A stretch of DNA of 64,000 bases from assembly GCA_018667335.1 (NCBI GenBank), contig JABIVD010000044.1, positions 124,001 to 188,000 of the forward strand, read 5' to 3'. The translations under genes were made by a program, and so were the position numbers. This stretch comes from Rhodospirillaceae bacterium. Its GTDB lineage: Bacteria; Pseudomonadota; Alphaproteobacteria; UBA6615. Below, in pieces: positions 29,529 through 56,517 of this stretch; within the stretch, counting starts at the first letter, position 1; every line of letters starts with the position of its first letter. The notes beneath the pieces were generated by a model. The model did not search any database. It was not told the DNA's origin and saw only the letters and a list, made by a program, of their open reading frames with translations.

Positions 29529-30935
29529 ATGGCCGAACAGAAACCCGACTTCTCCACCATCCCGTCGCTCGACCGCCTGTTGCAGGCGCCGGCCGTGATC
29601 ACGCTCGTCGCATCCCACGGCCGCAGCGCCACGGTCGCAGCGTTACGTGCGGCGCTCGACACTGCACGCGGCGCGCTTGCGGCCGGGGATGCGATCGCCC
29701 TGACCGAGGATGTCTTTGCCCAGACGGCCGCAGCGCGCCTGGAGCGCGAGGCGGCACCCGGACTGCGGCGGGTCTTCAACCTGACGGGCACGGTCCTGCA
29801 CACCAATCTCGGCCGCGCGCCGTTGGCAGAGGTCGCAATCACCGCCATGGCCGAGGCCGCGCGGGGCGCCAGCAATCTGGAGTATGACCTTGAGACCGGG
29901 AAACGCGGCGACCGCGACGTTCATGTCGAAGAACTGCTTTGCGAATTGACGGGGGCCGAGGCCGCCACGGTCGTGAACAACAATGCGGGTGCGGTGCTGC
30001 TGCTGCTGAATGCGCTGGCGCTGCGTAAGGAAGTCCCGGTGTCACGCGGCGAGCTGGTGGAGATTGGCGGCGCGTTCCGGATTCCCGACATCATGGCACG
30101 GGCGGGGGCTAAACTTGTCGAGGTGGGGACCACCAACCGGACGCACGCAAAGGATTTTGTGGAGGCCATCGGCGACCGGACCGCCCTGGTGATGAAGGTT
30201 CACACGTCGAACTATCTGGTCCAGGGGTTCACGGCCGACGTCGCCGAGGATGAATTGGCGGCCATCGCACATGCGCGCGATATTCCCTTCGCTGTCGATC
30301 TGGGCGCGGGCGCGCTGGTCGACCTGGAACGCTGGGGCCTGCCCCACGAACCGACCGCGCGCGAGACCCTCGGGGCGGGCGCCGACATCATTACTTTCTC
30401 CGGCGACAAGCTGCTCGGCGGGCCCCAGTCCGGGCTGATCGTCGGACGTGCCGACCTGATCGCCAAACTCAAGAAAAACCCGCTGAAACGTGCCCTGCGC
30501 TGCGACAAGGCAACCCTCGCTGCACTCGCCGCTACGCTCGGCCTCTATCGTGACCCCGATCGGCTGGCCGAACGCCTGCCCACGTTGCGGCTGCTGTCGC
30601 GCGATCCGGCCGAGATCCGCAAACTGGCCGAGAGCCTGACAGCCCCGGTGCAGGCGGCCGTCGGCGACGGCTTCACAATCTCGGTCAATGACTGCGCCGG
30701 GCAGATAGGCTCCGGGGCCTTGCCCGTCGAGAGCCTGGACAGCGTCGCACTGGTGATCCGGCCCGTCGGGTCGCGCGGCCAGGGTGCGCGCCTCAAGCGG
30801 CTCGCGGCGAGCCTGCGCGCCCTCCCGGTCCCCGTGATCGGCCGGGTCCATGACGACGCGCTCTGGCTCGACCTGCGCTGCCTCGACGATGTCGACGGCT
30901 TCCGCAGCCAACTCGAAAAGCTACAGATGACATGA
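29529..30935 (+). CDS. selA: L-seryl-tRNA(Sec) selenium transferase SelA
   Basis: A 468-residue PLP enzyme that converts seryl-tRNA(Sec) to selenocysteyl-tRNA(Sec) using selenophosphate. The N-terminal tRNA-binding domain begins with [12 protein letters not shown]; the fold-type-I core has [17 protein letters not shown] near 92, [15 protein letters not shown], the [17 protein letters not shown] block and the PLP-lysine Lys294 in [11 protein letters not shown]. Length is the usual size for bacterial SelA. Its stop overlaps the selB start (ATGA), so the two are co-translated. tRNA-Sec and selD lie 9 kb downstream. Confidence 0.97.
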
Positions 30936-32842
30936 TCGTCGCGACCGCAGGCCATATCGATCACGGCAAGACATTGCTGGTGAAGGCGCTGACCGGCGTC
31001 GATGCCGACCGGCTGCCGGAAGAGAAGAAACGCGGCATGACCCTCGATCTCGGCTTCGCCTACACCGATCTCGAGAATGGTGCCCGGCTCGGGTTTATCG
31101 ATGTCCCGGGCCATGAGCGCCTGGTCCACAACATGCTCGCCGGCGTCACCGGGATCGACTGCGCCCTCCTTGTGGTGGCCGCCGATGACGGACCGATGCC
31201 TCAGACGCTCGAACATCTGGCGATCCTCAATATTCTCGGCATCTCCCGCGGCATGGTCGCGCTGACCAAGATCGATCGTGTTGACCCGGCGCGGGTCGAG
31301 GAGGTCCAGGCGGAGATCGAGCTGCTGATCGGCGAAACCTCGCTCGCCGGCGCGCCGATCTATCCCGTCTCGGCGATCTCCGGCGATGGCATCCCCGCAT
31401 TACGGGAGCGTGTCGCCGACATGGCCGCCGAGACCGAAGCCAAATCGGGCAACGGCCATTTCCGCCTCGCCGTCGACCGGGTTTTCACCGTCGCCGGGGC
31501 CGGGCTCGTCGTCACCGGCACCGCGTTCGCAGGCACCGTCGCACGCGAGGATCGGCTGTGGATTTCCGGACACGACTCCCAGGTGCGAGTCCGGGGCATC
31601 CATGCCAACAACCAGGACAGCGAGACGGGCCGGGCCGGCGACCGGCTCGCCCTCAACATTACCGGGCTCGACAAGGATGACATCGTGCGCGGCGACTGGC
31701 TCGTGGCCGACCCGGGCCTCGCCCTGCACCGCAAGCTGGATGTGCGTCTGCATGTCGTCACCGACGCGAAACGTCCGCTGCGCCACTGGACACCGGTGCA
31801 TGTGCATCTTGGCGCGCGGAATGTTACGGGCCGCGTTGCGATTCTCGGGGCGGAGAACGCCGCGCCGGGCAGTTCGGTATTGGCCCAACTGGTGCTCGAC
31901 GCCCCCGTCGGGGCCTGTGTCCTCGACCGGTTCGTCATTCGCGATCAGTCGGCGCAGTTCACGCTCGGTGGCGGCCATGTTGTGGATCTCCACCCGCCGC
32001 GCAGGGGGCGCGCCAAACCGGAACGCCCGGAATTGCTCGCCGCGCTCGACACGTCCGATCCGGTGGCGGCGTTCGCCGCCGCGCTCGAACGTTCGCCCAC
32101 GGGAGTCTCAATCGAAGATTTCGCGGCGGCCCGCAATCTGACCGAGGCCGAGAAAGCGGCGGTGCTGAAATCCACGACCGCGGTCGTAACGGGTGAAGAT
32201 GCCACAGCCCTTGCGCTGTCCCCGGCCACCTGGGCGGCGCGCCAGGGTGAGTTGCTGGCGGCGCTCGACCAGTTCCACGAACGTTATCCCGACCGGCTCG
32301 GCCCCGCGGCCGCCCAGCTGCGCAAGAGCCTGGGCCGCTATATTCCCGAGCCGCTTTTCGACGCAATCACAGCGCGGCTGGTGGCAGACAAGACATTGTC
32401 CAGCGATGGCATGCTGTTGCACCGGCCGGATCACCAGCCCGGCCTGACCGGCGACGATGCGAAACGCTGGGACGTTCTGCAGCCCCTGCTGAACGAAACA
32501 CCCGAAAGCCCGCCCGTGGTGCACGATCTGGCGCAGACTGCCGGTCTCCCCGTCAATGGCGTGGGCAAGACCCTGCGGCAGGCCGTGCGCATGGGTCTCG
32601 CAGTACAGATCGCAGAGAACAGGTTTTTCACACCCGCAGCACTGCGCGCGCACGCGCAGACATTCGAGACCATGATCGCAGCCGAAGGGGTTGTTGGCGT
32701 ATCGCCGTTCCGCCAGCAAGCGGGCATCGGGCGAAACCTCGCCGTCGAAGTGCTTGAGTATTTCGATCGGATCGGGCTGTCACGGCGCGACGGGAATGCC
32801 CGACATCAAGTGCGGCCCGCGGCCGAGGTGTTCGGCAACTAG
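30932..32842 (+). CDS. selB: Selenocysteine-specific elongation factor SelB
   Basis: A 636-residue GTPase that carries Sec-tRNA to the ribosome at UGA codons with a SECIS hairpin. G1 is GHIDHGKT (7-14), the switch region includes [14 protein letters not shown]3 is [12 protein letters not shown] and G4 is LTKIDRV. Domains II and III follow to about 340. The C-terminal winged-helix repeats (about 400-636) bind the SECIS RNA; they end in the segment around [39 protein letters not shown], a typical WHD4. It is coupled to selA. The three TGA-containing genes nearby are expected clients. Confidence 0.97.
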
Positions 32843-39994: not shown

Positions 39995-40090
39995 GGAGGA
40001 GGACCGTTCCCCGGTGGGGCGCCCGGTCTTCAAAACCGGTGAGGGGCGTTAGACGTGCCTGGTGGGTTCGACTCCCACCCTCTTCCGCCA
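39995..40090 (+). tRNA. selC: tRNA-Sec (UCA anticodon)
   Basis: The 96-nt gene folds as bacterial tRNA-Sec: an 8-bp acceptor stem GGAGGAGG/CCTCTTCC (one G-T pair), discriminator G and encoded CCA; anticodon stem CCGGT/ACCGG with loop CTTCAAA and anticodon TCA at 40030-40032; a long variable arm; and a 5-bp T-stem GTGGG/CCCAC with loop TTCGACT adjoining the acceptor strand without spacer (8+5 architecture). Length, discriminator and CTTCAAA loop match E. coli selC. selD starts 94 bp downstream on the same strand. Confidence 0.97.
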
Positions 40091-40183: not shown

Positions 40184-42415
40184 ATGACCCCGACAGTTCC
40201 CATCACATGCGACATCGTCCTGGTCGGCGGCGGCCATAGCCATGTTGCGGTTCTCAGGCGGTTCGGTATGAAGCCCGAGCCGGGGGTGCGGCTGACGCTG
40301 ATCACCCGCGACCTGCTGACCCCCTATTCGGGCATGATCCCCGGCTACATCGCCGATCACTACAGCGAGGCCGAGGCGCATATCGACCTGCGGCCGCTGG
40401 CGGCCTTTGCGAATGCTCGCGTGATCCACGCTGCCGCGACCGGTCTCGATCTCGCGCAGAACTTCGTACAGGTCGCCGGCCGGCCGCCGGTGGCGTTCGA
40501 CCTCATCTCGATCGACACGGGCTCGACACCGTCGACGGCGCATATCGAGGGTGCGGAACACGGGCTGCCGGTCAAACCCATCGACCGGTTCCTCGATGCC
40601 TATCACCGGCTGACCGACGAGATACGCGGTCATGACGGCCCGTTCCACATCACGGTCGCCGGCGGCGGTGCTGGCGGAGTCGAGCTTTCGCTGGCGCTGA
40701 GCCATCGTCTGCGCGTCGCGGCGCCCGGCCTCAACAAACGGCCCGACGACATGCATTTCGCGATCGTCGAGGCTGCGGACACGCTGCTGCCCGGCTACAA
40801 CGCGGCCGCGCGGCGCAAGCTGGCGCGGGCTTTGTCGGACCGGGGCATCGACGTGCGCACCGGCGCCAGGGTCGAGCGGGTCACACCCGACTCCGTGACA
40901 TTGTCCAACGGCGACAGCCTGACCAGCGACAAGACGATCCTCGTCACATCGGCCGGCCCGCCGCTCTGGCTCGCCGACAACGACATCGCGCGCGACGAAC
41001 GGGGCTTCATCCGGGTCGACGACAAGCTCCGCTCCCCGTCCCACGCCCAGCTGTTCGCGGCCGGCGATGCCGCCTCCATGGACGGACACCAGCTTCCGAA
41101 GGCCGGCGTCTATGCGGTGCGTCAGGGACCGTATCTCGCAGACAATCTCCGTCGCGCGGCGCTCGACAAGCCTCTCAAGGCCTACCGCCCCCAGGGGCAA
41201 GCCCTGGCGTTGATCACGACCGGCGACCGCTACGCCATCGCCGCGCGGGGGCCCTTCGCGTTCGAGGGGGACTGGGTCTGGCGCTGGAAGGACTGGATCG
41301 ACCGGCGCTGGATGAAGAAGTACCAGGAGCTGCCGGAGATGGATGGCGGGCATGGCGCGGATGGCGACGATGCGCTTGAGGCCATGCGCTGCGGCGGTTG
41401 TGGCGCCAAGGTGCCGGCACCCGTCCTGCGCCGCGCGCTGGATCGCCTGCCGCCGCAACATGCCGATGGGCTCGACCAGGGGTTGGACTCGCCTGACGAT
41501 GCGGCGGTCCTGTCGCCGCCGCCGGGCAAGGCCCTCATACAGACGGTGGACCAGTTTCGCGCCTTCATCGACGACCCGTATCTGTTCGGCCGGATCGCGG
41601 CGAACCATTGCCTGGGCGACATTTTCGCGATGGGTGCGGATGCCCATTCGGCCCTGGCCGCCGTCATGCTGCCCCATGGCGAGGATGACAAGACGTCCGA
41701 CGATCTCTACCAGCTGCTCGCCGGCGCCACCGAGACCCTCGCCGAAGCGGGTGCCGTCCTGGCCGGCGGGCATACGGGCGAAGGTTCGGAGATGGCCTTC
41801 GGCCTGACCGTCAATGGCTATGCCGAGCGCGATGAAATCCTGCGCAAGTCCGGCCTGCAGGCGGGAGACATCCTGATCCTGACCAAACCACTGGGCACCG
41901 GCGTGTTGTTCGCCGCCGACATGCGCGCCAAGGCCAATGGCGACCATGTGACCCGCGCGTTCGCCTCCATGCAGCGCTCGCTGGCACCGTGTATCCCCGT
42001 GATCCGCCGCCACGGCGCCACGGCCGGCACGGACGTCACCGGGTTCGGGCTGGCCGGTCATATGCTGGAGATGCTCAACGCATCCGACGTCGACGCGGAA
42101 CTGAAACTTGACGCCTTGCCGGTGCTTCCGGGCGTGGCGGAACTGGTTGCCCTGGGGCATGAGAGCACCCTGCGCCCGAGCAATGAGGAGTCCGTCGGAA
42201 ACGCCGTGCCCTTGTCGGCACATCCGAGCTTCCCGCTGCTGTTCGATCCCCAGACCGCGGGCGGGCTTTTGTTCGGCGTGCCCGCCGACCAGGCCGAAGC
42301 CTGCTGCGCCGAACTGCGTGCCGGCCCGGCGCCGGACGCCAGAATCATCGGACGGATTACGCCGCGGCGCGGGTCGGTCGGCGTGGTGCGTTTCACCGAC
42401 GAGACCAAAAGCTAA
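40184..42415 (+). CDS. selD: Selenide, water dikinase fused to an FAD NADH-dehydrogenase-like domain
   Basis: A 743-residue two-domain protein. Residues 1-390 are a pyridine-nucleotide-disulfide-oxidoreductase-like FAD domain starting VGGGHSHVAVLRRF (15-28) with the second nucleotide site AGGGAGGVELSLAL and FAAGDAASMDGHQLPKAG. Residues about 400-743 are SelD: MRCGGCGAKV, with Cys406-Lys409 equivalent to Cys17-Lys20 of E. coli, DDAAVLSPPPGKALIQTVDQFRAF, and the GGHTGEGSE and TDVTGFGLAGH blocks. It makes selenophosphate for SelA. The fusion occurs in alphaproteobacteria, cyanobacteria and some algae; the flavin domain probably supplies reduced selenium. This SelD uses Cys, not Sec. Confidence 0.96.
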   Translation: MTPTVPITCDIVLVGGGHSHVAVLRRFGMKPEPGVRLTLITRDLLTPYSGMIPGYIADHYSEAEAHIDLRPLAAFANARVIHAAATGLDLAQNFVQVAGRPPVAFDLISIDTGSTPSTAHIEGAEHGLPVKPIDRFLDAYHRLTDEIRGHDGPFHITVAGGGAGGVELSLALSHRLRVAAPGLNKRPDDMHFAIVEAADTLLPGYNAAARRKLARALSDRGIDVRTGARVERVTPDSVTLSNGDSLTSDKTILVTSAGPPLWLADNDIARDERGFIRVDDKLRSPSHAQLFAAGDAASMDGHQLPKAGVYAVRQGPYLADNLRRAALDKPLKAYRPQGQALALITTGDRYAIAARGPFAFEGDWVWRWKDWIDRRWMKKYQELPEMDGGHGADGDDALEAMRCGGCGAKVPAPVLRRALDRLPPQHADGLDQGLDSPDDAAVLSPPPGKALIQTVDQFRAFIDDPYLFGRIAANHCLGDIFAMGADAHSALAAVMLPHGEDDKTSDDLYQLLAGATETLAEAGAVLAGGHTGEGSEMAFGLTVNGYAERDEILRKSGLQAGDILILTKPLGTGVLFAADMRAKANGDHVTRAFASMQRSLAPCIPVIRRHGATAGTDVTGFGLAGHMLEMLNASDVDAELKLDALPVLPGVAELVALGHESTLRPSNEESVGNAVPLSAHPSFPLLFDPQTAGGLLFGVPADQAEACCAELRAGPAPDARIIGRITPRRGSVGVVRFTDETKS

Positions 42416-42428
42416 GTTGGCAAAGAAA

Positions 42429-42454
42429 AAGGCCCTCCCGACGGGGAGGGCCTT
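42429..42454. terminator. Rho-independent terminator between selD and the GrdB-like gene
   Basis: AAGGCCCTCCC-GACG-GGGAGGGCCTT has an 11-bp stem. On the minus strand it is followed by TTTCTTT and so ends the GrdB-like selenoprotein message; on the plus strand the tail is CCTGAT, a weaker stop for selD. Confidence 0.85.
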
Positions 42455-42478: not shown

Positions 42479-43711
42479 TCAGCCGTGTTTGGTGCGGTGG
42501 CGCTGATGGGTCGGGACCATGGCGGTCGTCGCCAGCGCCTTGAAGCCCTTGTTCTCGCTCTCCATCGCCCAATCGCGGATCTCGACCAGCACCTTGCCCA
42601 GCGTGGTCTCGCCCCACAGCCAATTGCCGATTTCGAGATCGCTGACCCGCGCGTCGGGCCGCGCGATCGCCGCTTCCATATAGTAGTAACGCAGGTCGTC
42701 GGCCATCTGCTTGAACGCCAGCGGCGCCGGCCTGTCCTCAACCGGTGACGCCGTGTCTTCCCGGTTCACCACGAGGCTGGCAAAGAACGCCGGGATCTCT
42801 TCCGGTGCCTTGCCCGAGATGCCGTAATTCGTGCGGCCACCCCGGGTCTGCTTCGATTCCTCATACCAGGGCTTCAGCAACGAGATTTCCTGCAGCAGCG
42901 TCTGGGTGAGCAGCTCTTCATCGCTCATATCCGCGACCGGTGCGGCGAAGTTGACTGGGCAGGCCCAGCCTTCCTGATCCACATCCGCACCCGGTGCATC
43001 GTCGGGAAAATCTGCGAGCGCCGGCCCGGATTCCTCTTCGAGGAGCTCCAGGCAATTCTGCAAGACCCGGCGTTGGAAGTCGGGCTCGTTGGGCGCACCC
43101 AACGGACGGCCAAGTTCGAACGGCACCGCGAGTGCGCGCGGCGGTTTGATTTCCTCGGCATGCTTGCGGATCAGTGCGATCAGCGTCGTCGGAATGCCTT
43201 CGTCTTCGAGATAATGTGCAAGCCCGCTCACGGCGCGCGTGCATTGGGGTCAGACAGGGACGAGTACGACAGCGTCGACATTGTCCGCCTTGAGGACATT
43301 CGCAAGATCGCGTGCGATCGGCTCCATCACGGTTGGCGGCGTCGCCCCCATGAAGGAATAGTGCCGGCTCGCAACCGAACCAATCACGCCCTCATCGGCC
43401 AACTCGCTCAGACGATCGAAGGGGAAGGACGTGTTGACGTCCTGGTAGAAGCCGCTGCGATCGAAATTCGTCGACAGATGGCTCATCACCAGCTGGTCCA
43501 TATCGTAGTCGTCCGGGATGATCCGGTAATCGGCGGACCCGGGCGTGAACGGAGGATCTTCTCGGCGGTGCAAACCCGCCGTCGAGATCAGCGCCACGCG
43601 GCATTCATTCAACGGTTTGGGCGTGACCCATGGCGTGTCGCCATATTCGGGCAGTTCCTGATTGATCAGCGCCTCGCGCAGATGATCAGGCATTTCGCGC
43701 AGATGGACCAT
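42479..43711 (-). CDS. GrdB-like selenoprotein (in-frame TGA read as Sec154)
   Basis: Gene calling splits this at TGA 43252-43250. Read through as selenocysteine it is one 410-residue protein in a single frame. The TGA falls in LVPVUPQCTRAVSGL, giving Sec154-X-X-Cys157, as in the glycine/betaine/sarcosine/proline reductase selenoprotein B family. Other family blocks are RVALISTAGLHRREDPP near 38, GSVASRHYSFMGATPPT near 110 and ARDLANVLKADNVDAVVLVPV before the Sec. The C-terminal half is long and acidic/Trp-rich. Proteins A, C, D and E of glycine reductase are absent, so it is probably a different reductase. GAGGAG precedes ATG 43711; the GST gene lies 124 nt upstream on the same strand. Confidence 0.9.
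43217..43243 (-). promoter_or_regulatory. Candidate SECIS hairpin of the GrdB-like selenoprotein
   Basis: Starting 7 nt after UGA, UGCA pairs with UGCA, and an inner stem GC(G)CCG / CGGGC with a bulged G is capped by UGAG. Total size about 27 nt, ending 33 nt after UGA. Bulged apical stems of this kind are usual for bacterial SECIS elements. Confidence 0.5.
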
Positions 43712-43835
43712 AACTTCTCCTCAAATCGGAATTTTCAAAACCCTATCAGCGCCATTGGCCGGCAACAACTCCGGTGCCTGAACAGCACCTTTGCTCGCAG
43801 CGCAATGCTGCGGGCGGGTTGTTCCGGACTTATAG

Positions 43836-44528
43836 CTAGGCGGCGCGCATATCCGCGGCGGTCGTGCCGGTCGAAGTGTTTTCTGCGTATTTGCGCCAGT
43901 TCTCGATGAGGACATCGAGCGCGGCCGAACCGGCCGACACCGACGCGCGCTGGCCCATCAGCTGCAGCCAACCCTTGAGCAGGATGCATTCGTCGGGAAT
44001 CTGGAAGTCGCGATAATGGGTCAGTACGGCAACCCGCTGCATGTGCGGCAGGAATGTCAGATCGACCAGGCTGATGTCGTCGCCCATCCAGTAGGAACCG
44101 TCGCCCAGCTTGCCGAGCCCCTCATGCTCCATCATCAGCATGGCGTTGGACAGCCGCTCGGCTTGAACAGCCTGCGCGTCGGCATCCTGGGCCAGCATCA
44201 GCTTGTAGACATGGGGCGTGAAGCGGACATTCGCGAAGTCGATCCAGATGCGCGCCTGGGCCCGGCGAACCGGATCGCGGGGCATCAGCGGCCGGTCGGG
44301 GAACACCTCTTCGAGATACTCGTTGATCACGCCGGATTCGAAAATCACCGCACCATTGTGACGCAGAACCGGAACCTTGCCGTAGGGTGATATCGCCAGG
44401 AACCAATCGGGTTTGTCATTGAGATCGATCGCCGTTAGCTCGAAATCGATGCCCTTCTCGATCAGGGCCATGCGCGTGCGTTGCGCAAACGGGCAGGTCG
44501 CCGAACTGATGATTTCCACGTCAGCCAT
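43836..44528 (-). CDS. Glutathione S-transferase-family protein
   Basis: A 230-residue cytosolic GST. The N-terminal thioredoxin-like domain begins EIISSATCPFAQRTRMAL with Cys12 as the likely catalytic residue (as in Omega and dehydroascorbate-reductase-like GSTs), followed by SPYGKVPVL and the cis-Pro and the FESGVINEYL glutathione contact. The C-terminal helical domain includes DDISLVDLTFLPHMQR. It is placed 24 nt after the molybdenum-hydroxylase gene and 124 nt before the GrdB-like selenoprotein gene, all minus strand, so these three may be one unit. A thiol-transfer or reductive function is likely. Confidence 0.9.
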   Translation of the reverse strand: MADVEIISSATCPFAQRTRMALIEKGIDFELTAIDLNDKPDWFLAISPYGKVPVLRHNGAVIFESGVINEYLEEVFPDRPLMPRDPVRRAQARIWIDFANVRFTPHVYKLMLAQDADAQAVQAERLSNAMLMMEHEGLGKLGDGSYWMGDDISLVDLTFLPHMQRVAVLTHYRDFQIPDECILLKGWLQLMGQRASVSAGSAALDVLIENWRKYAENTSTGTTAADMRAA

Positions 44529-44552: not shown

Positions 44553-46943
44553 TTAGTATTTGCCGAGCGCCTTGAGCACCCGTTCCGGCGTCACCGGCTG
44601 GGCCCAGACGGACGCATTGAACGGGCTGAGCGCATCGTTGATCGCGTTCAGGATCGCCCCCGGCGCGCCGGCCGTGCCGGCCTCGCCCGCACCCTTGGCG
44701 CCAAGCTCGGATTCCATGGTCAGGGTCTCGATATGCCCGATCTCGATGTCCGGCATCTCGCCGGCCATGGGCACCAGATAGTCGGCCATGTTGGCGTTGA
44801 GGAAGTTCCCGTCCCGGTCGTAGCGGCACTCTTCATAGAGCACGCCGCCGATCCCCTGGACGATCGAGCCGCGCACCTGCTCGTCGACCAGCAGCGGGTT
44901 GATCACCTTGCCGCAATCCTCGACGCACCAGTATTTCAGGAGCTGGACTGTTCCCGTCTCGGGATCGACGTCGACGGTCACCGCCTGGAAGCTGTTGGTC
45001 ATGGCGACCGGGTACTTCTTCGGGATGTAGTGGCGTGTCGCCATCATCTCCGACTGGAAATCCTGGGGCAGCGTATCGGGCCGGAAATAGGCAACCCGTG
45101 CGACCTCCTCGAGCGGCATGCGCTCTTCCCGCGTCACGCGGTCCACGACGACACCGGCGCTGATATCGAGCGTCTCGCGTTCGGTCTGGAGCAGGATCGC
45201 CGCCACGTCCAGTACGTTGTGACGCAGCGCCTTGGCCGCCTGCAATGCGGCTTCACCGGCGATGCCTGCGCCGCCGGAACCGCCCGCGCCCCAGCCGACC
45301 GGGACATTGTCCGTGTCGCCGGAGATCACCTTCACCTTGTCAGGGGTGGTGCCGAACGCGGTCGCGGTCACCTGCTGGATAACCGCCTCGCTGCCCTGCC
45401 CCTGCTCGCTGATGCTGGTCTGCACGATCACGGCGCCGGACGCGTCCATGCGCGTCGCCGCCCCGTCCTGGGACGAAATGCGTGCGCCGCCGAGCCCATA
45501 GGTGTGTGGCCCCGGGTTGGTCATCTCGACGAGCGTCGCGAAGCCGATCCCCCGGTAGATGCCTTTCTCCCGAAGCTCCGCCTGCTCGGCCCGGAAGCCC
45601 TTGTAGTCGAACATCGTCAACAGCTTGTCGAGGGAGGCCTCGTGGGAGAGGGCTTCCATCTTGAGCCCGGTGATGAACTCGCACGGATAGCCGTCATCGG
45701 GCATCAGGTTACGCCGGCGGATGTCGACCGGGTCCATGCCCAGCGCCCGCGCGCCCTCATCCATAAGTGTTTCTGTGATTGCCACCGCCACGGGATGACC
45801 CACGGCGCGGTACTGGCTCATCGGCGTCTTGTTCTGGAACACGACCCGCGAACGCGCCTTGTAGTTCTGATGGGTATAGGGCGCGCCCACATAGTTGATG
45901 ACCTGCAGGGCCTCCAGCGCGCTGGTGCGCGGGTACATGGAGTAGGCGCCGACACCCGTGAGATCGTCCATCTCGATCCCCAGCAACTCGCCATCCGCCG
46001 CAAAGGCCGCACGGGCCGTGGCGCGGTGATCGCGCGCGTGCAGATCGGTGAGGAAGGATTCGAGCCGATCGGCGATGAACTTCACCGGTCGTTTGAGGAT
46101 CATCGAAATCGCGGCCGTGGCCATCTCGTCGGGATAGGTGTGGCCCTTGACGCCGTAGGCGCCGCCCACATCGCCGCAGATGATCCGCACATTCTGGTTC
46201 TCGATGCCCAGATGACGCGCGAACAGGTCCTGCATCATGTGCGGGGCCTGGTGCGAATGATAGGCGGTCAGCCGATGTTCGGACGCGGTGTAATCGGCGA
46301 TGATCGACCGGGATTCCGGGCACACGCCGGTGTGTCGGCCGAAATCCAGCGTCCGCTCGACGATCTTGTCGGCGGCGGCAAAGGCCGCGGCGGTGTCGCC
46401 GATATCGTGGTTCATCTCGAACAGCAGATTGTCACCGAGGTCCGGATGCATCACCGGCGTATCGTCATCCATCGCGACTTCGGGGTCCGCGAGGACCGGC
46501 AGTTCCTCGAACTCGACCTCGATCAGTTGGACGGCGTCCTCGGCCTCGGCGCGGCTGTTGGCGACCACGGCGGCGATCGGCTCGCCCTGCCAGCAGGCGC
46601 GCTCGACGGCGAGCGCGTGCTGGGGCGCCGACTTCATGCCCTTGAAATGCGCCAGGGTGCCGACCCAGGGCGTGCAGACTTCGGCAACCTCCTTGCCGCT
46701 GATCACGCGAACGACGCCAGGGCAGGCCAGCGCGGCGGTGTCATCGATCGAGACAATCCGCGCGTGGGCATAGGGCGAGCGGTAGTAAACGACATGCACC
46801 ATGCGCGGCAGGGTCAGGTCGTCGACATAGCGCCCTTCGCCCGCGACCAGCCGGCGCACAACGGCGCGCGGCACAGAGGCGCCGATATAGTTGTCGGCAC
46901 GGTCGAGGACGCTGCCCTCGTCGGTCTCGTTGGATACGCTCAT
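44553..46943 (-). CDS. Orphan molybdenum hydroxylase large subunit, paralogue 2 (QYRAVGHP variant)
   Basis: A 796-residue CoxL/XDH-like protein. The hammerhead domain contains LVAGEGRYVDDLTLPRMVH at 32-50; GGAYGVK at 260-266 binds the cofactor; QYRAVGHP at 377-384 replaces the usual AYRGAGRPE; the base Glu754 sits in GAGEAG. No 2Fe-2S or FAD partner gene is near. It resembles paralogue 3 closely (both 796 residues with common C-terminus PERxLKALGKY) and paralogue 1 more distantly, pointing to duplication. ATG 46943 is chosen for a GAAATC/AGGGCGG-containing leader; earlier in-frame codons precede the conserved part. Substrate unknown. Confidence 0.87.
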   Translation of the reverse strand: MSVSNETDEGSVLDRADNYIGASVPRAVVRRLVAGEGRYVDDLTLPRMVHVVYYRSPYAHARIVSIDDTAALACPGVVRVISGKEVAEVCTPWVGTLAHFKGMKSAPQHALAVERACWQGEPIAAVVANSRAEAEDAVQLIEVEFEELPVLADPEVAMDDDTPVMHPDLGDNLLFEMNHDIGDTAAAFAAADKIVERTLDFGRHTGVCPESRSIIADYTASEHRLTAYHSHQAPHMMQDLFARHLGIENQNVRIICGDVGGAYGVKGHTYPDEMATAAISMILKRPVKFIADRLESFLTDLHARDHRATARAAFAADGELLGIEMDDLTGVGAYSMYPRTSALEALQVINYVGAPYTHQNYKARSRVVFQNKTPMSQYRAVGHPVAVAITETLMDEGARALGMDPVDIRRRNLMPDDGYPCEFITGLKMEALSHEASLDKLLTMFDYKGFRAEQAELREKGIYRGIGFATLVEMTNPGPHTYGLGGARISSQDGAATRMDASGAVIVQTSISEQGQGSEAVIQQVTATAFGTTPDKVKVISGDTDNVPVGWGAGGSGGAGIAGEAALQAAKALRHNVLDVAAILLQTERETLDISAGVVVDRVTREERMPLEEVARVAYFRPDTLPQDFQSEMMATRHYIPKKYPVAMTNSFQAVTVDVDPETGTVQLLKYWCVEDCGKVINPLLVDEQVRGSIVQGIGGVLYEECRYDRDGNFLNANMADYLVPMAGEMPDIEIGHIETLTMESELGAKGAGEAGTAGAPGAILNAINDALSPFNASVWAQPVTPERVLKALGKY

Positions 46944-47067
46944 GATTTCCGCCCTTTGGAATTTGCTGGGCCGGAAGGTACAACCCCTTGGGCGATGCGG
47001 CCACCCCACTCTTGGGGACGACCGATCACAATCCGGAACACCCCGGAAACGGCATACGGCGAACCAA

Positions 47068-47541: not shown

Positions 47542-49932
47542 CTAATACTTGCCGAGCGCCTTGAGAATACGCTCCGGCGAGATCGGCTGGTGGGTCAGGC
47601 GCGCATCGAACGGCGACAGCGCGTCGTTGATCGCGTTCATGATCACCGCCGGCGCACCCGCTGTGCCCGCCTCGCCCGCACCCTTGGCGCCGAGTTCGGA
47701 ATCTGCCGTCGGCGTCTCCACATGGCCGACCGAAATGTCCGGCATCTCGCCCGCCATCGGCACCAGGTAATCCGCCATGTTCGCGTTCACGAGGTTCCCG
47801 GCCACGTCGTAGCGGCATTCCTCCATCAGCGCGCCGCCGAGCCCCTGGATCACGCCGCCGCGCACCTGCTCATCGACGAGTTGCGGGTTCAGCACCGTGC
47901 CGCAATCCTCGACCACCCAGTAGTTCAGGAATTTGAGGAAGCCTGTGTCGGGATCGATCTCGACGTAGCAGGCCTGGATGCCGTTGGTGAACGCGATGTT
48001 GTATTCCCGCGGCACGAAATGGCGGGTCGCCATGAGCTCCGGCTGGAACCCCTTGGGGATCATGTCCGAGCGAAAATAGGAAATCCGCGCCAACTCGTCG
48101 AGGCCCATGCGCTCGTTGCCGGTGTCGTTGTCCACGACCACGCCCTCGCGGATGTCGAGGGTCACCGGGTCGGCTTGCAGCAGCTGGCCGGCCACGTCCT
48201 TGACGTTGTAGCGCAGCGCCTTGGCCGCCTGCAGGACGGCTTCACCGCCGATGCCCGCACCGCGCGAACCCCAGGTGCCGCCGCCGGTCGGCACATTGTC
48301 CGTGTCGCCGGTGATCACCTTGACCCGGTCCGGGGACGTCCCGAACGCGGTGGCCGCGATCTGGGCCATCACCCCGTCGGTGCCCTGGCCCTGTTCTGTA
48401 ACGGATGTATGCACGACGATCGAGCCGCTCGAATCGAGCCGCACCTGCGCGCCGTCCTGGGACGAAATCCTCGCACCGCCGATGCCGTACATGGCCGCAC
48501 CCGGATTGGTCAGCTCGATCATCGCCGCGAAGCCGATGCCGCGATAGATGCCGTCGGCACGCAGCGCGTCGCGCTCCGCCTTCATCCCCTCATAGTCCAT
48601 CGATGCCAGAAGCTTATCGAGCGTCTGATGGTGTGACAGGCCTTCGAACGCGATACCGCTCGCACCCTTGGTCGGATAGGCATCATCGGCGATCAGATTG
48701 CGTCGCCGGATGTCGACCGGGTCGATCCCCAGCTCCCGCGCGCCCTTGTCGACCATGGCCTCGGTCACCGCGAAGGCGATCGGGTGGCCCACCGCACGGT
48801 ACTGGCACATGACGTTCTTATTCTGGAACACGACCTGCGCCTTGGCGCGATAGTTCTGATGCTTGTAAGGGCCGCCCGTGAAATTCAGGACCTGGTTGGC
48901 CTCCATGGCGCTGGTGCGCGGATACATGGAGTAAGGCCCGACCCCGGTCAGGTCGTCGACCTCGATCGCGGTGATATCGCCGTCCTTGGTGAATCCCATC
49001 TTGGCGTGCACCCGATGGGCGCGGGCGTGGATGTCCGTGAGAAATGATTCCAGCCGGTCGGCCGCGAACTTGACCGGTCGGCAGAGCATCCTGGACAGCG
49101 CGGCAGCCGCCATCTCGTCAGCATAGACATGCACCTTGATGCCGAACGAACCACCCACATCCTTGCAGATGACCCGGACCTGGCCTTCATGGATGCCGAG
49201 ATGCTTGGCGAAGATGTGCTGCATCATGTGCGGTGCCTGGTTCGACATATGCACCGTCAGCTTGTCGTCGGCCTCGTCATAGTCAGCCAGGATGACCCGC
49301 GGCTCCAGGGTCACGCCGGTGTGGCGATCGAAGTTATAGGTCTCCTCGACCACCAGATCGGCGGCGGCAAAGGCCGCGTCCACATCGCCGGACTCGACCC
49401 CGTTCTCGAAGGCGATGTTGTCGCCGAGCTCGGGGTGGATCACATGGGTGCCGGGATCGCCGGCCGTCTCCGCGTCGGTGACCGCAGGCAGCTCTTCATA
49501 ATCGACTTCGATCATCGCCGCGGCGTCTTCGGCCTCGGCCCGGCTGTTGGCGACAACCGCGGCCACCGCCTCACCCTGCCAGCTGACCTTGTTCACCGCG
49601 ATCGCGTGTTGCGGCGCGGATTTGAGACCCACCATATGCGTGAGCACCCCGACCCACGGCTCGCAATACTCGGCCAACTGCGCGCCCGTTACGACGCGCA
49701 CGACGCCGGGCATTCCCGCGGCTTCGCTGGTATCGATGGAGGTTATTTTGGCATGGGCGTGGGGTGAGCGCAGGAACACCGCGTGCACCATGCGGGGCAG
49801 TGTCAGATCATCAACGAACTGGCCCTTGCCACGCACAAGCTTGCGTACGTTCGGGCGCGGCACCACCTTGCCGATGTAACTGTTGGGGCGTCCCAGGACG
49901 CTCGAATCCGGGCTCAGCGCTTCGTCGGTCAT
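47542..49932 (-). CDS. Orphan molybdenum hydroxylase large subunit, paralogue 3 (QYRAVGHP variant)
   Basis: A 796-residue close paralogue of the protein encoded at 44553-46943. It has LVRGKGQFVDDLTLPRMVH, the GGSFGIK cofactor loop, CQYRAVGHP in place of the usual AYRGAGRPE, and Glu754 in GAGEAG. No CoxS or CoxM partner gene is adjacent. GGAG lies 7 nt before ATG 49932, which is preferred over an ATG 3 nt upstream and a further one at 49953. The acyl-CoA dehydrogenase gene lies upstream on the same strand (37 nt gap between them), so they may be cotranscribed. Confidence 0.87.
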   Translation of the reverse strand: MTDEALSPDSSVLGRPNSYIGKVVPRPNVRKLVRGKGQFVDDLTLPRMVHAVFLRSPHAHAKITSIDTSEAAGMPGVVRVVTGAQLAEYCEPWVGVLTHMVGLKSAPQHAIAVNKVSWQGEAVAAVVANSRAEAEDAAAMIEVDYEELPAVTDAETAGDPGTHVIHPELGDNIAFENGVESGDVDAAFAAADLVVEETYNFDRHTGVTLEPRVILADYDEADDKLTVHMSNQAPHMMQHIFAKHLGIHEGQVRVICKDVGGSFGIKVHVYADEMAAAALSRMLCRPVKFAADRLESFLTDIHARAHRVHAKMGFTKDGDITAIEVDDLTGVGPYSMYPRTSAMEANQVLNFTGGPYKHQNYRAKAQVVFQNKNVMCQYRAVGHPIAFAVTEAMVDKGARELGIDPVDIRRRNLIADDAYPTKGASGIAFEGLSHHQTLDKLLASMDYEGMKAERDALRADGIYRGIGFAAMIELTNPGAAMYGIGGARISSQDGAQVRLDSSGSIVVHTSVTEQGQGTDGVMAQIAATAFGTSPDRVKVITGDTDNVPTGGGTWGSRGAGIGGEAVLQAAKALRYNVKDVAGQLLQADPVTLDIREGVVVDNDTGNERMGLDELARISYFRSDMIPKGFQPELMATRHFVPREYNIAFTNGIQACYVEIDPDTGFLKFLNYWVVEDCGTVLNPQLVDEQVRGGVIQGLGGALMEECRYDVAGNLVNANMADYLVPMAGEMPDISVGHVETPTADSELGAKGAGEAGTAGAPAVIMNAINDALSPFDARLTHQPISPERILKALGKY

Positions 49933-49989
49933 CATCTCACTCCACTCGTGCATTCGGTCCGCGTCTGACGCACGGATTGTTGAGTCTAA

Positions 49990-51192
49990 CTATTCCACAG
50001 CAGGCCCGTGAAGGCGATTGCGAACCGGGTGCCGATTGGCATCCTTTATCCCCAGCGCATCCTCGCCAATCAGGATCCGCTGGACGTTCGCCGTGCCCTC
50101 GCCCACCGCCAGCATGTTCACATAGGCCGTGTATTTCTTGATCGGATACTCGTCTGCCAGCGCGTAGCCGGCGAAGACCTCCGCCGCGCCCGCCGCGGCC
50201 TGCTTCGCCGCCTCGACGGCGAAATACTTGGCGCGGGATGCGGCGCGGCTCGCGGGCCGGCCCTCATCCATCAGCCAGGCCATCCGCTGCACCATCAGGC
50301 GCGCGGCATCGGTGTGGGTCGCCATGTCGGCGATCAGGTGCTGCACCATCTGATACTCAGCGATCGGGTTGCCCCGGATCACGCGCTGGTTCGCGTAGCC
50401 GACCGCTTCGTCGAGGCAGGCCTGCGCCAACCCAACCGCGCGGGCCGACACGGTCAGCCGCCCGAACTCCAGGGCGTTCATCGCGATCTTGAAGCCCGCG
50501 CCCTCTTCGCCGAGACGATTCTCCGCCGGGACGACAAAGTCATCGAGGAACACCGCGTTGGATGCCAGGCAATTCGACAGCCCGGTCATCGGGATCGGGT
50601 TGGCGCTGTAGCCGTCATATTTCTTCGGCTCGACGATGAAGGCGGTGATGCCCCTGTGACCAGCCGCCGCATCGGTCTTGGCGAACAGCACGCCCACATC
50701 GGCGGCGTTGGCGAACGTGATCCACTGTTTCGAACCGTTCAGGCGATAGACACCCCCGTCACGCACGGCCGTCGTCTTCATCGACCCGGCCGCATCCGAG
50801 CCGCCGCCGGGTTCGGTCAGCGCAAACATGCCGATGCGTTTGCCGGCGATCAGATCGGGCACGAAATCGGCGATCTGCGCATCGGTGCCCCAGTTGAAGA
50901 TCGTGAAGGGGCAGGTCATGCCTTGCATATTCATGCAGTAGCCGAATTCGGGCGCGACCCGTGAGATCGCCTCGGAGATCGCCGCCACGGCAACGAACCC
51001 GACGTTCGTCCCACCCAGGTCCTCGGGAAAAGCCGCGCCGAAGAAACCGGCCGCACCCATCTTCTCGACGAGTTCACGGGGAAACTCGCCCGACGCCTCA
51101 TACGCGACCATCGCGGGCGTGATCTCGGTCTCGACGAACCGCGCGACCGTATCCGCAAATGCGGCAATCTCTTCGGGCAGGGTGAAATCCAT
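49990..51192 (-). CDS. Acyl-CoA dehydrogenase
   Basis: A 400-residue FAD-dependent dehydrogenase. The FAD/substrate-binding blocks [22 protein letters not shown] near 130 and [15 protein letters not shown] near 155 are conserved, as is the [25 protein letters not shown] helix. The late [10 protein letters not shown] carries the likely catalytic Glu in the position used by short/medium-chain enzymes. It starts at [14 protein letters not shown] and is divergent from the CoA-transferase pair. Together with that pair and the CaiB/BaiF enzyme it suggests degradation of an organic acid through CoA thioesters. Confidence 0.93.
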
Positions 51193-54975: not shown

Positions 54976-56517
54976 CTAAAGCGGAAGTGGGTTCCCGTCC
55001 GCAAAGCCGCGCAATTCATCGAACAATTCCGCGTCGTTGATGATGCGTGGCACCTTGTGTTGCCCGCCGAGCTGCCCGCGCGATTTCATCCATTCTGCGA
55101 ACTCGCCAGGCGACAAAGCGATCGCCTGCGGCGGGTTCATGCCGAACCCCTCCGATCGGTGCGCCTCGTAGTCCTCGTTCGTAGCGCATAGCGCCGCGTC
55201 AAGCGTACGCGCGAAATGCGCCAGCCGGGCCTCGGACGGCACCTCACCGGCGAACTCGACGATGTAGAGATGACCGCCCCGGCTGTCGTCATCGCTGGCA
55301 TGCACGGCACCCACGGACCAGTCCCGGACGTCCGAGCCGATGGCCACGCCACCGTCGCGGACCGCGGCCTCGATCTCATCCGCGATCAGATGCTCGCCGA
55401 ACGCCGACATCATATAGCTCGTGCGTCCCGTCACCTTGAGCCGAAGCGGGTTCCGGCTCACCAGCTCGACCGTATCGCCGAGCACATAGGACCAGAGGCC
55501 GGCACAACTGCTGACGACCAGTGCATAGTTGATGCCGCGCTGGACGGTACCTGCCCAGTGACGCGTCGGTTGGCGGGCGTCGAGTTCATCGACCGGCACG
55601 AATTCATAGAACAGCCCGGTGTCGAGCATCAGCCGCAGGCCGTCCTCCGGTGCCTGATCGGCGACGCCGATGAACCCCTCGCTGGCGGGATAGACCTCGC
55701 GCAGTTCGGCCCGGGTATTCGCAATCAGCGCCTCGAACCGCGCCCGATAGGGTTTGAAATCCACGCCGCCATGGATCATCAGCTCGAGGTTGGGGAAATA
55801 TTTCGCCAGGTCGGGGCTGCTGTCACCACGATGCGCGGCGAGCTTGTCGAAGAAGATCAGCAACCAGGACGGCGTGCCGCCGATGAGCCGGATATCCTCG
55901 CCGTCCAACGCGCGCACCATCCGACCGACCTTCAGTTCCCAATCGGTGACAGATGCAAGCTCCTGCGAGGGAAACGAACGGCTGCGGAACCACCAGGGCA
56001 GGTTCGCGGTCATGATCCCGGAGAGATCACCACTGCGAATGCCCGGCGCCTCGTCGGTGAAGTCGGTGCTGCCGCCCAGCATGAAGGACTTGCCACCAAG
56101 GATCTTGCTGCCGGGCCGACTGGCGAGGTGGTGGCAGATCAGGTCGAGCCCCGCCATGGTGTTCGACGAGATCATCTCATTCGTGCAGGGGATGTATTTG
56201 GTGCGCCCCGAGGTCGTGCCCGACGTGACCGCCAGATACGGCACCCGCGACGGCCAGGTGACACCTCGCAGATCCGGAAAGGCGTCACCCCAGTAGCGCT
56301 CCTGGAAATCCTCGTACCGGCGCAGCGGCACCCGCGCCTGGAACTCCGTCACACTCCGGATGGATTTGAAATCGTGATCGCGACCGAAGGTCGTCCGGCT
56401 TGCCCGCGCCACCAACCCGAGCAGTTGCCGCTGCTGGATGTCCGCGGCATTCATCGCGGCCAGCTTGCGGAGCCGTCGCGTACCGTAGATCCGGACAAGA
56501 GGTGTGATGTTCAGCAT
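54976..56517 (-). CDS. GH3 (auxin-responsive promoter) family acyl-adenylating enzyme
   Basis: A 513-residue ANL-superfamily protein of the GH3 type. The phosphate loop is TSGTTSGRTKYIP (about 98-110), and conserved blocks such as LMIHGGVDFKPYRARFEALI, YPASEGFIGVAD and LVVSSCAGLWSYVLGDTVELV follow. Plant GH3 enzymes adenylate acyl acids and conjugate them to amino acids; bacterial members are widespread but poorly defined. It is convergent with the oxaloacetate decarboxylase gene (9-nt gap). The penicillin-acylase gene lies just upstream on the same strand, so synthesis and hydrolysis of an N-acyl amide could be coupled. Confidence 0.87.
   Translation of the reverse strand: MLNITPLVRIYGTRRLRKLAAMNAADIQQRQLLGLVARASRTTFGRDHDFKSIRSVTEFQARVPLRRYEDFQERYWGDAFPDLRGVTWPSRVPYLAVTSGTTSGRTKYIPCTNEMISSNTMAGLDLICHHLASRPGSKILGGKSFMLGGSTDFTDEAPGIRSGDLSGIMTANLPWWFRSRSFPSQELASVTDWELKVGRMVRALDGEDIRLIGGTPSWLLIFFDKLAAHRGDSSPDLAKYFPNLELMIHGGVDFKPYRARFEALIANTRAELREVYPASEGFIGVADQAPEDGLRLMLDTGLFYEFVPVDELDARQPTRHWAGTVQRGINYALVVSSCAGLWSYVLGDTVELVSRNPLRLKVTGRTSYMMSAFGEHLIADEIEAAVRDGGVAIGSDVRDWSVGAVHASDDDSRGGHLYIVEFAGEVPSEARLAHFARTLDAALCATNEDYEAHRSEGFGMNPPQAIALSPGEFAEWMKSRGQLGGQHKVPRIINDAELFDELRGFADGNPLPL

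Follow-up and report, generated by a model that had tools for sequence, protein, structure and literature searches.

A PrdB/GrdB-like selenoprotein with a fused helical domain and no detected pyruvoyl partner in a probably respiring alphaproteobacterium

D-Proline reductase is an anaerobic enzyme of Stickland metabolism that works with a pyruvoyl partner. What, then, is the function of a selenoprotein of this superfamily in an alphaproteobacterium that is likely to respire? The question is raised by a gene in a 64,000-nucleotide stretch of contig JABIVD010000044.1 of a Rhodospirillaceae bacterium (assembly GCA_018667335.1), here called the window. The first-pass annotation described its product as a GrdB-like selenocysteine (Sec) protein without any glycine-reductase partner in a likely respiring bacterium. 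We have analysed the gene together with its relatives, and refer to the protein and its relatives of the same kind as the long form.

The features of the locus are collected in Table 1. The boundaries originally given for the gene are correct; it lies on the minus strand. The glutathione S-transferase (GST) and molybdenum hydroxylase that had been placed upstream on the same strand are indeed there, the latter as two large subunits. The gene starts with the ATG at 43711 and ends with the TGA at 42481-42479, encoding 410 residues; when read with translation table 11 it appears as two open reading frames of 153 and 250 aa. The sequence around the Sec is LVPV-U-PQCTRAV. The genes for selA, selB, tRNA-Sec and the SelD fusion all lie within about 14 kb. 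In the fusion a pyridine-nucleotide-disulfide oxidoreductase domain stands in front of SelD, and tRNA-Sec is located about 100 bp upstream. No adjoining FAD or 2Fe-2S subunit was noticed beside the tandem molybdenum hydroxylase large subunits. Elsewhere in the window (54976-56517) is a protein close to the OlsH lyso-ornithine lipid synthetase model, scoring 568 bits against a cut-off of 620.

Table 1. Positions of the long-form gene, its elements and its neighbours in the window
Feature	Position	Strand	Remarks
Long-form PrdB/GrdB-like selenoprotein gene	42479-43711	minus	410 aa, Sec at 154
In-frame UGA, read as Sec (U154)	43250-43252	minus	UGA in 80/80 named loci; Cys where SelB is missing
UPQC active-site motif (UxxC)	43241-43252	minus	N terminus of helix after beta strand (model)
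SECIS-like hairpin directly 3' of UGA	43217-43243	minus	Core-pair conservation and covariation
Rossmann-like catalytic domain, PrdB/GrdB homologue (residues 31-231)	43019-43621	minus	Profile, tblastn, model
C-terminal all-helical domain (residues 262-410)	42482-42928	minus	Found fused to long form only
AGGAG ribosome-binding site	43717-43721	minus	Sequence
Terminator-like hairpin and T run between convergent genes	42426-42452	minus	By eye
Glutathione S-transferase, directly upstream	43836-44528	minus	Lineage-specific neighbour
Molybdenum hydroxylase large subunit (xanthine dehydrogenase family)	44553-47009	minus	
Second molybdenum hydroxylase large subunit	47542-49953	minus	
Acyl-CoA dehydrogenase	49990-51192	minus	Neighbour conserved in family
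Pyridine-nucleotide oxidoreductase-SelD fusion, convergent	40184-42415	plus	TIGR00476, 289 bits (cut-off 125)
tRNA-Sec (selC)	39995-40086	plus	
SelA	29529-30935	plus	
SelB	30932-32842	plus	

As far as the sequence can tell, the UGA at codon 154 encodes selenocysteine. Long-form loci from genomes of the class (36) and from named genomes (80) align on either side of it, and the protein as a whole aligns with about 90 distinct relatives. At all the named loci the UGA is kept, 78 times as PVU or PIU and twice as GVU. Identity is conserved on both sides of it, and homology to the PrdB and GRDB models ends at or spans the codon. Three long-form members (L061, L064 and L065) have cysteine at the Sec position (PVCPNCTR), and no SelB above the model cut-off was found in their genomes. 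SelB was above the cut-off in 20 of the 22 other carrier genomes tested. In one carrier (G338) part of SelB was found where a contig breaks off; in another (G264) the long-form gene has the UGA, yet no SelB was seen.

The folding energy of the hairpin that follows the UGA is unremarkable (z = -0.36), and we therefore turned to covariation and codon choice as evidence. The core pairs are kept in 81-86 of 86 sequences, though the one adjacent to the loop is kept in 62. At +12/+26 there is C-G in 73 sequences, U-A in 11 and A-G in two. The change from C-G to U-A affects both sides in the same 11 sequences and arose three times independently in the tree, a number too small for a sign test to be informative (p = 0.25); its 3' part is synonymous. 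Where glycine is encoded at +24, the codon is always GGG or GGA (46 of 46 sequences), though GGC is the common glycine codon of these genes; the associated p of about 2e-26 treats the sequences as independent and is thus overstated. The features expected of a bacterial selenoprotein, i.e., an in-frame UGA, a SECIS-like hairpin and the Sec machinery, are all present. The full-length formate dehydrogenase (FdhA) of the host has no in-frame UGA, and the Sec machinery is thus not kept for that enzyme. That the UGA is a true stop or a sequencing error, with the two halves separate or decayed, would agree with the unremarkable folding energy, but is made extremely improbable by the retention of the UGA at every named locus, the compensatory changes in the hairpin, the synonymous choice at one glycine codon and the cysteine replacement where the genome lacks SelB. 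Among the aligned genes, an in-frame TAG was seen in one long-form copy and a frameshift in one (L053 and L037, in G034 and G376); these may be assembly errors or decay.

To which family does the protein belong? The PrdB model (TIGR04483) matched with 126 bits over residues 31-226, below its equivalog cut-off of 300, and the models of GrdB/GrdF/GrdH type with 46-52 bits. The Pfam GRDB family (PF07355) was matched by 33 of 33 members. The match of the window protein (35.1 bits, cut-off 22) lies at profile positions 221-345 only; this is the C-terminal half of the profile, and the protein is not a full-length GrdB. True PrdB, taken from annotated plasmid records and compared by tblastn, is 32-37% identical, with the similarity confined to residues 32-231. 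A UGSC family match was obtained for one of 33 members (E = 0.0043), and PHROGs gave none. In a tree of the shared domain (129 rows, quick SH-aLRT support without bootstrap, the long-branch row L071 being unsure) the long-form sequences, Cys members among them, fall into a single clade (SH-aLRT 100), apart from GrdB (100), PrdB (90) and the short alphaproteobacterial forms. The window protein is nested in neither clostridial GrdB nor PrdB. Judged by these comparisons, PrdB is a closer relative of the catalytic domain than GrdB is, but the domain falls into neither group. The original description as GrdB-like was therefore right as to the superfamily, but not as to the nearest relative, and it missed both the separate clade and the fused domain.

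Comparison with the known subunits brings out what is shared and what is not. PrdB, the 26-kDa Sec subunit, has a homologous catalytic domain with the UxxC motif and the core H, D, E and R residues, but carries UGTCHR in about 240 aa where the window protein has UPQCTR in 410 aa. It ends 8-15 aa after the catalytic domain, and is encoded with PrdA in annotated Enterococcus, Terrisporobacter and Ligilactobacillus records. In GrdB, GrdF and GrdH, the Sec subunits of glycine, sarcosine and betaine reductase, it is the C-terminal half that is homologous. The long form lacks the N-terminal half of GrdB as well as the third cysteine of its motif (UGTCTRC), and forms a separate clade; GrdA and GrdE are absent. 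The short alphaproteobacterial proteins of the 'selenoprotein B family' (UPVCHQ, UPLDHQ and Cys forms) belong to the same superfamily, but unlike the long form they lack the C-terminal domain and fall into clades of their own; no pyruvoyl partner was found nearby in their annotated loci. Five of the short Sec proteins (L171, L172, L174, L176 and L180), with the motif UPLDHQTV, have no resolving cysteine at U+3, so that resolution of their Sec must take a different route.

The motif of the long form as a whole is UPxCTRAV. P97, G108, U/C154, E169, G172, R192 and G201 are kept in all subfamilies; the long form has, in addition, the invariant residues R63, H78, S80, D84, H117, C157, Q213, E275 and D339. 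The predicted structure (pLDDT 90, pTM 0.86) places UxxC at a strand-helix junction. A fold search with the full model gave no match at E = 0.001, and a search of PDB sequences with the family profile gave nothing. Comparison by VIA returned generic Rossmann-like folds (LacI, ketoreductase) with a best Z of 8.3, and no thioredoxin chain is among the fold matches listed.

The C-terminal domain, about 150 aa, is predicted to be entirely helical with a pLDDT of 95.8. It matched nothing in Pfam or NCBIfam, and only short stretches in a PDB sequence search. The best of these, which covers 30 residues of an engineered cytochrome c555 with E = 0.0016, was taken as chance. The domain alone gave no Foldseek match below E = 5 and a best VIA Z of 3.8, although failure to match is no proof of a new fold. 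It was found in 32 of 372 alphaproteobacterial genomes and, among the matches listed, the places are those of long-form genes. The one exception, in G281, is a fragment with which a contig begins and which fits the missing end of the truncated long-form gene of that genome. Within the sampled class the domain is thus a dedicated part of the long-form protein. It is the natural candidate for the role of the missing pyruvoyl subunit; it may instead serve in oligomerisation or regulation.

Is the partner subunit encoded elsewhere? The GrdE/PrdA family (PF09338) was found in none of 25 carrier genomes, i.e., that of the window and 24 others, and GrdA (PF04723) is likewise absent from all of these. 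Clostridial, enterococcal and lactobacillar records served as positive controls, with matches to PF09338 in four of four and to PF04723 in three of four, which makes the absence of both meaningful. The genome of the window is 96% complete, and the absence holds within that completeness. It also contains two haem-copper oxidase genes. The claims of a missing glycine-reductase partner and of a likely respiring host are thus both upheld, the former, as regards GrdA and GrdE/PrdA, now for the whole assembly. With GrdA and GrdE/PrdA missing in the carriers and haem-copper oxidase genes in the host, Stickland metabolism is unlikely, and the central point of the first-pass annotation, a Stickland-type Sec protein outside Stickland metabolism, stands. 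Among 11 further carriers, mostly from outside the class, eight have no PF09338 match, including the cultured Reyranella aquatilis. The three that do are Desulfobacterales, SAR202 and 'Deltaproteobacteria' genomes, and on the Desulfobacterales chromosome over 1 Mb separates the PF09338 gene and the long-form gene. The SAR202 genome of locus L090 (G389) has eight matches to PF09338 (GrdE/PrdA-like), several of them on different contigs.

Over 91 distinct loci the commonest neighbours are SelD (15 loci), SelB (12) and SelA (10). Others recur in a scattered manner, namely short-chain dehydrogenases (SDRs, 13), molybdenum hydroxylases (12), CoA-transferases (9) and GSTs (8). Besides the sel genes there is no frequent general operon partner across these loci. 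Nor is there consensus on a shared substrate pathway among the neighbours in the clade, which are a mixture of SDR, CoA-transferase, molybdenum hydroxylase and alcohol dehydrogenase genes. In the window's own family the order molybdenum hydroxylase, GST, selenoprotein and convergent SelD is kept in several genomes. GST was considered as a general functional partner and rejected, since its recurrence is largely limited to the lineage of the window. At two of the Cys-form loci (L061 and L065) the downstream gene on the same strand looks by eye like a TauD-type dioxygenase. Four loci (L085, L086, L101 and L108) have tandem paralogues, the second long-form gene starting 4-42 bp after the first.

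What reaction might the protein perform? Our preferred reading, to which we assign a probability of roughly 0.5, is a one-subunit Sec reductase that uses selenolate chemistry of the PrdB/GrdB type, with the C-terminal domain in place of the pyruvoyl subunit. The reaction would then probably be a bond-breaking one similar to those of the amino-acid reductases of anaerobes. The Rossmann-like domain retains the PrdB/GrdB active site, comprising H78, D84, P97, U154-x-x-C157, E169 and R192. The selenolate of U154 may attack a small organic substrate at an activated carbon, most likely in the position alpha to a carboxyl or carbonyl, and so expel an amine, thiol, alkoxide or halide. Attack of C157 on the resulting seleno-ether would give the reduced product and a selenenyl-sulfide, to be recycled by cellular thiols. 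The fused helical domain, with its invariant E275 and D339, might take over the substrate binding performed by GrdE/PrdA.

Seleno-ether cleavage has been proposed for both glycine and D-proline reductases (PMC10298544). A precedent for a different leaving group and a substrate other than glycine is provided by FarB/FarE of Synergistota, where an operon of GrdB/GrdE type is linked to cleavage of the C-F bond of fluoroacetate (PMC10838667); this suggests that the chemistry of the superfamily is not confined to amines. Unlike the long form, however, the anaerobic Far system keeps a GrdE-type partner, FarE. In their known reactions PrdB and GrdB use a pyruvoyl or carbonyl partner, and their chemistry may therefore not transfer to the long form.

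The main rival to selenolate chemistry is that the protein is a general Sec thiol oxidoreductase, reducing disulfides, peroxides or sulfoxides via glutathione or thioredoxin, and resembles PrdB only through the ancestry of its fold. We consider this possible, if rather unlikely. The UxxC motif by itself also fits a disulfide or peroxide reductase, the model places it at the start of a helix, and in the window's family the gene has the GST as its immediate upstream neighbour. Of the UxxC selenoproteins found in the sea, many are moreover redox proteins (PMC1088965). Yet E169, R192, H78 and D84 are kept, for which a plain disulfide reductase would have no need, the listed fold matches are Rossmann-like rather than thioredoxin-like, and the link to GST is confined to one lineage.

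The prominence of sel genes among the neighbours could alternatively point to a protein of selenium homeostasis, either a Sec-dependent sensor or a selenium-handling factor for the adjacent genes. SelD is no more than two genes away from the long-form gene in 12 of the 91 distinct loci, and SelB and SelA lie near it in 12 and 10. The majority of loci, however, show no linkage to sel genes, tandem and multiple copies occur, and Cys forms persist in genomes without SelB. Such linkage would be expected equally of the main client of the Sec machinery, given an FdhA without UGA, and we regard a homeostatic role as improbable.

Still less probable, indeed barely credible, is a true D-proline (or glycine or betaine) reductase whose pyruvoyl partner has diverged or escaped recognition. 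PrdB is certainly the best NCBIfam match, and marine members have been counted as PrdB in two surveys (PMC1088965, PMC2398784). Against this the score remains well under the PrdB cut-off, PF09338 is absent from all 25 carrier genomes while the controls are positive, the clade lies outside PrdB, UPxCTRAV takes the place of UGTCHR, a C-terminal domain has been added and the host has haem-copper oxidases.

Returning to the one-subunit reductase, how common might such a protein be? In the Sargasso Sea survey, 'proline reductase PrdB' (UxxC) is the third most abundant known selenoprotein family, with 42 of 310 genes (PMC1088965), and the Global Ocean Sampling (GOS) survey counted 235 PrdB selenoproteins (PMC2398784). 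These counts date from 2005 and 2008 and were made under the proline-reductase name; the PrdB type accounts for 6.4% of marine selenoprotein genes. The marine proteins share UxxC and pfam07355, are abundant in the surface ocean and probably include the long form; the accessible parts of the surveys mention neither a partner analysis nor a fused domain. It is likely that the Sargasso and GOS genes belong to the partnerless, domain-fused clade. We found no description of this clade in the open-access literature searched.

More tentatively, we suggest that the long form represents a widespread and hitherto unrecognised class of one-subunit selenoenzymes in both respiring and anaerobic bacteria, cleaving C-X bonds reductively by means of a new helical domain with no pyruvoyl partner, and that it may be a common Sec enzyme of the surface ocean, concealed by the name proline reductase. 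As a self-contained protein that needs a single gene, it lends itself to direct tests of its function, and the natural Cys-containing relatives offer an easy route to expression. If the marine genes do belong to the long-form clade, the accepted name would be wrong for what would be a major oceanic use of selenium.
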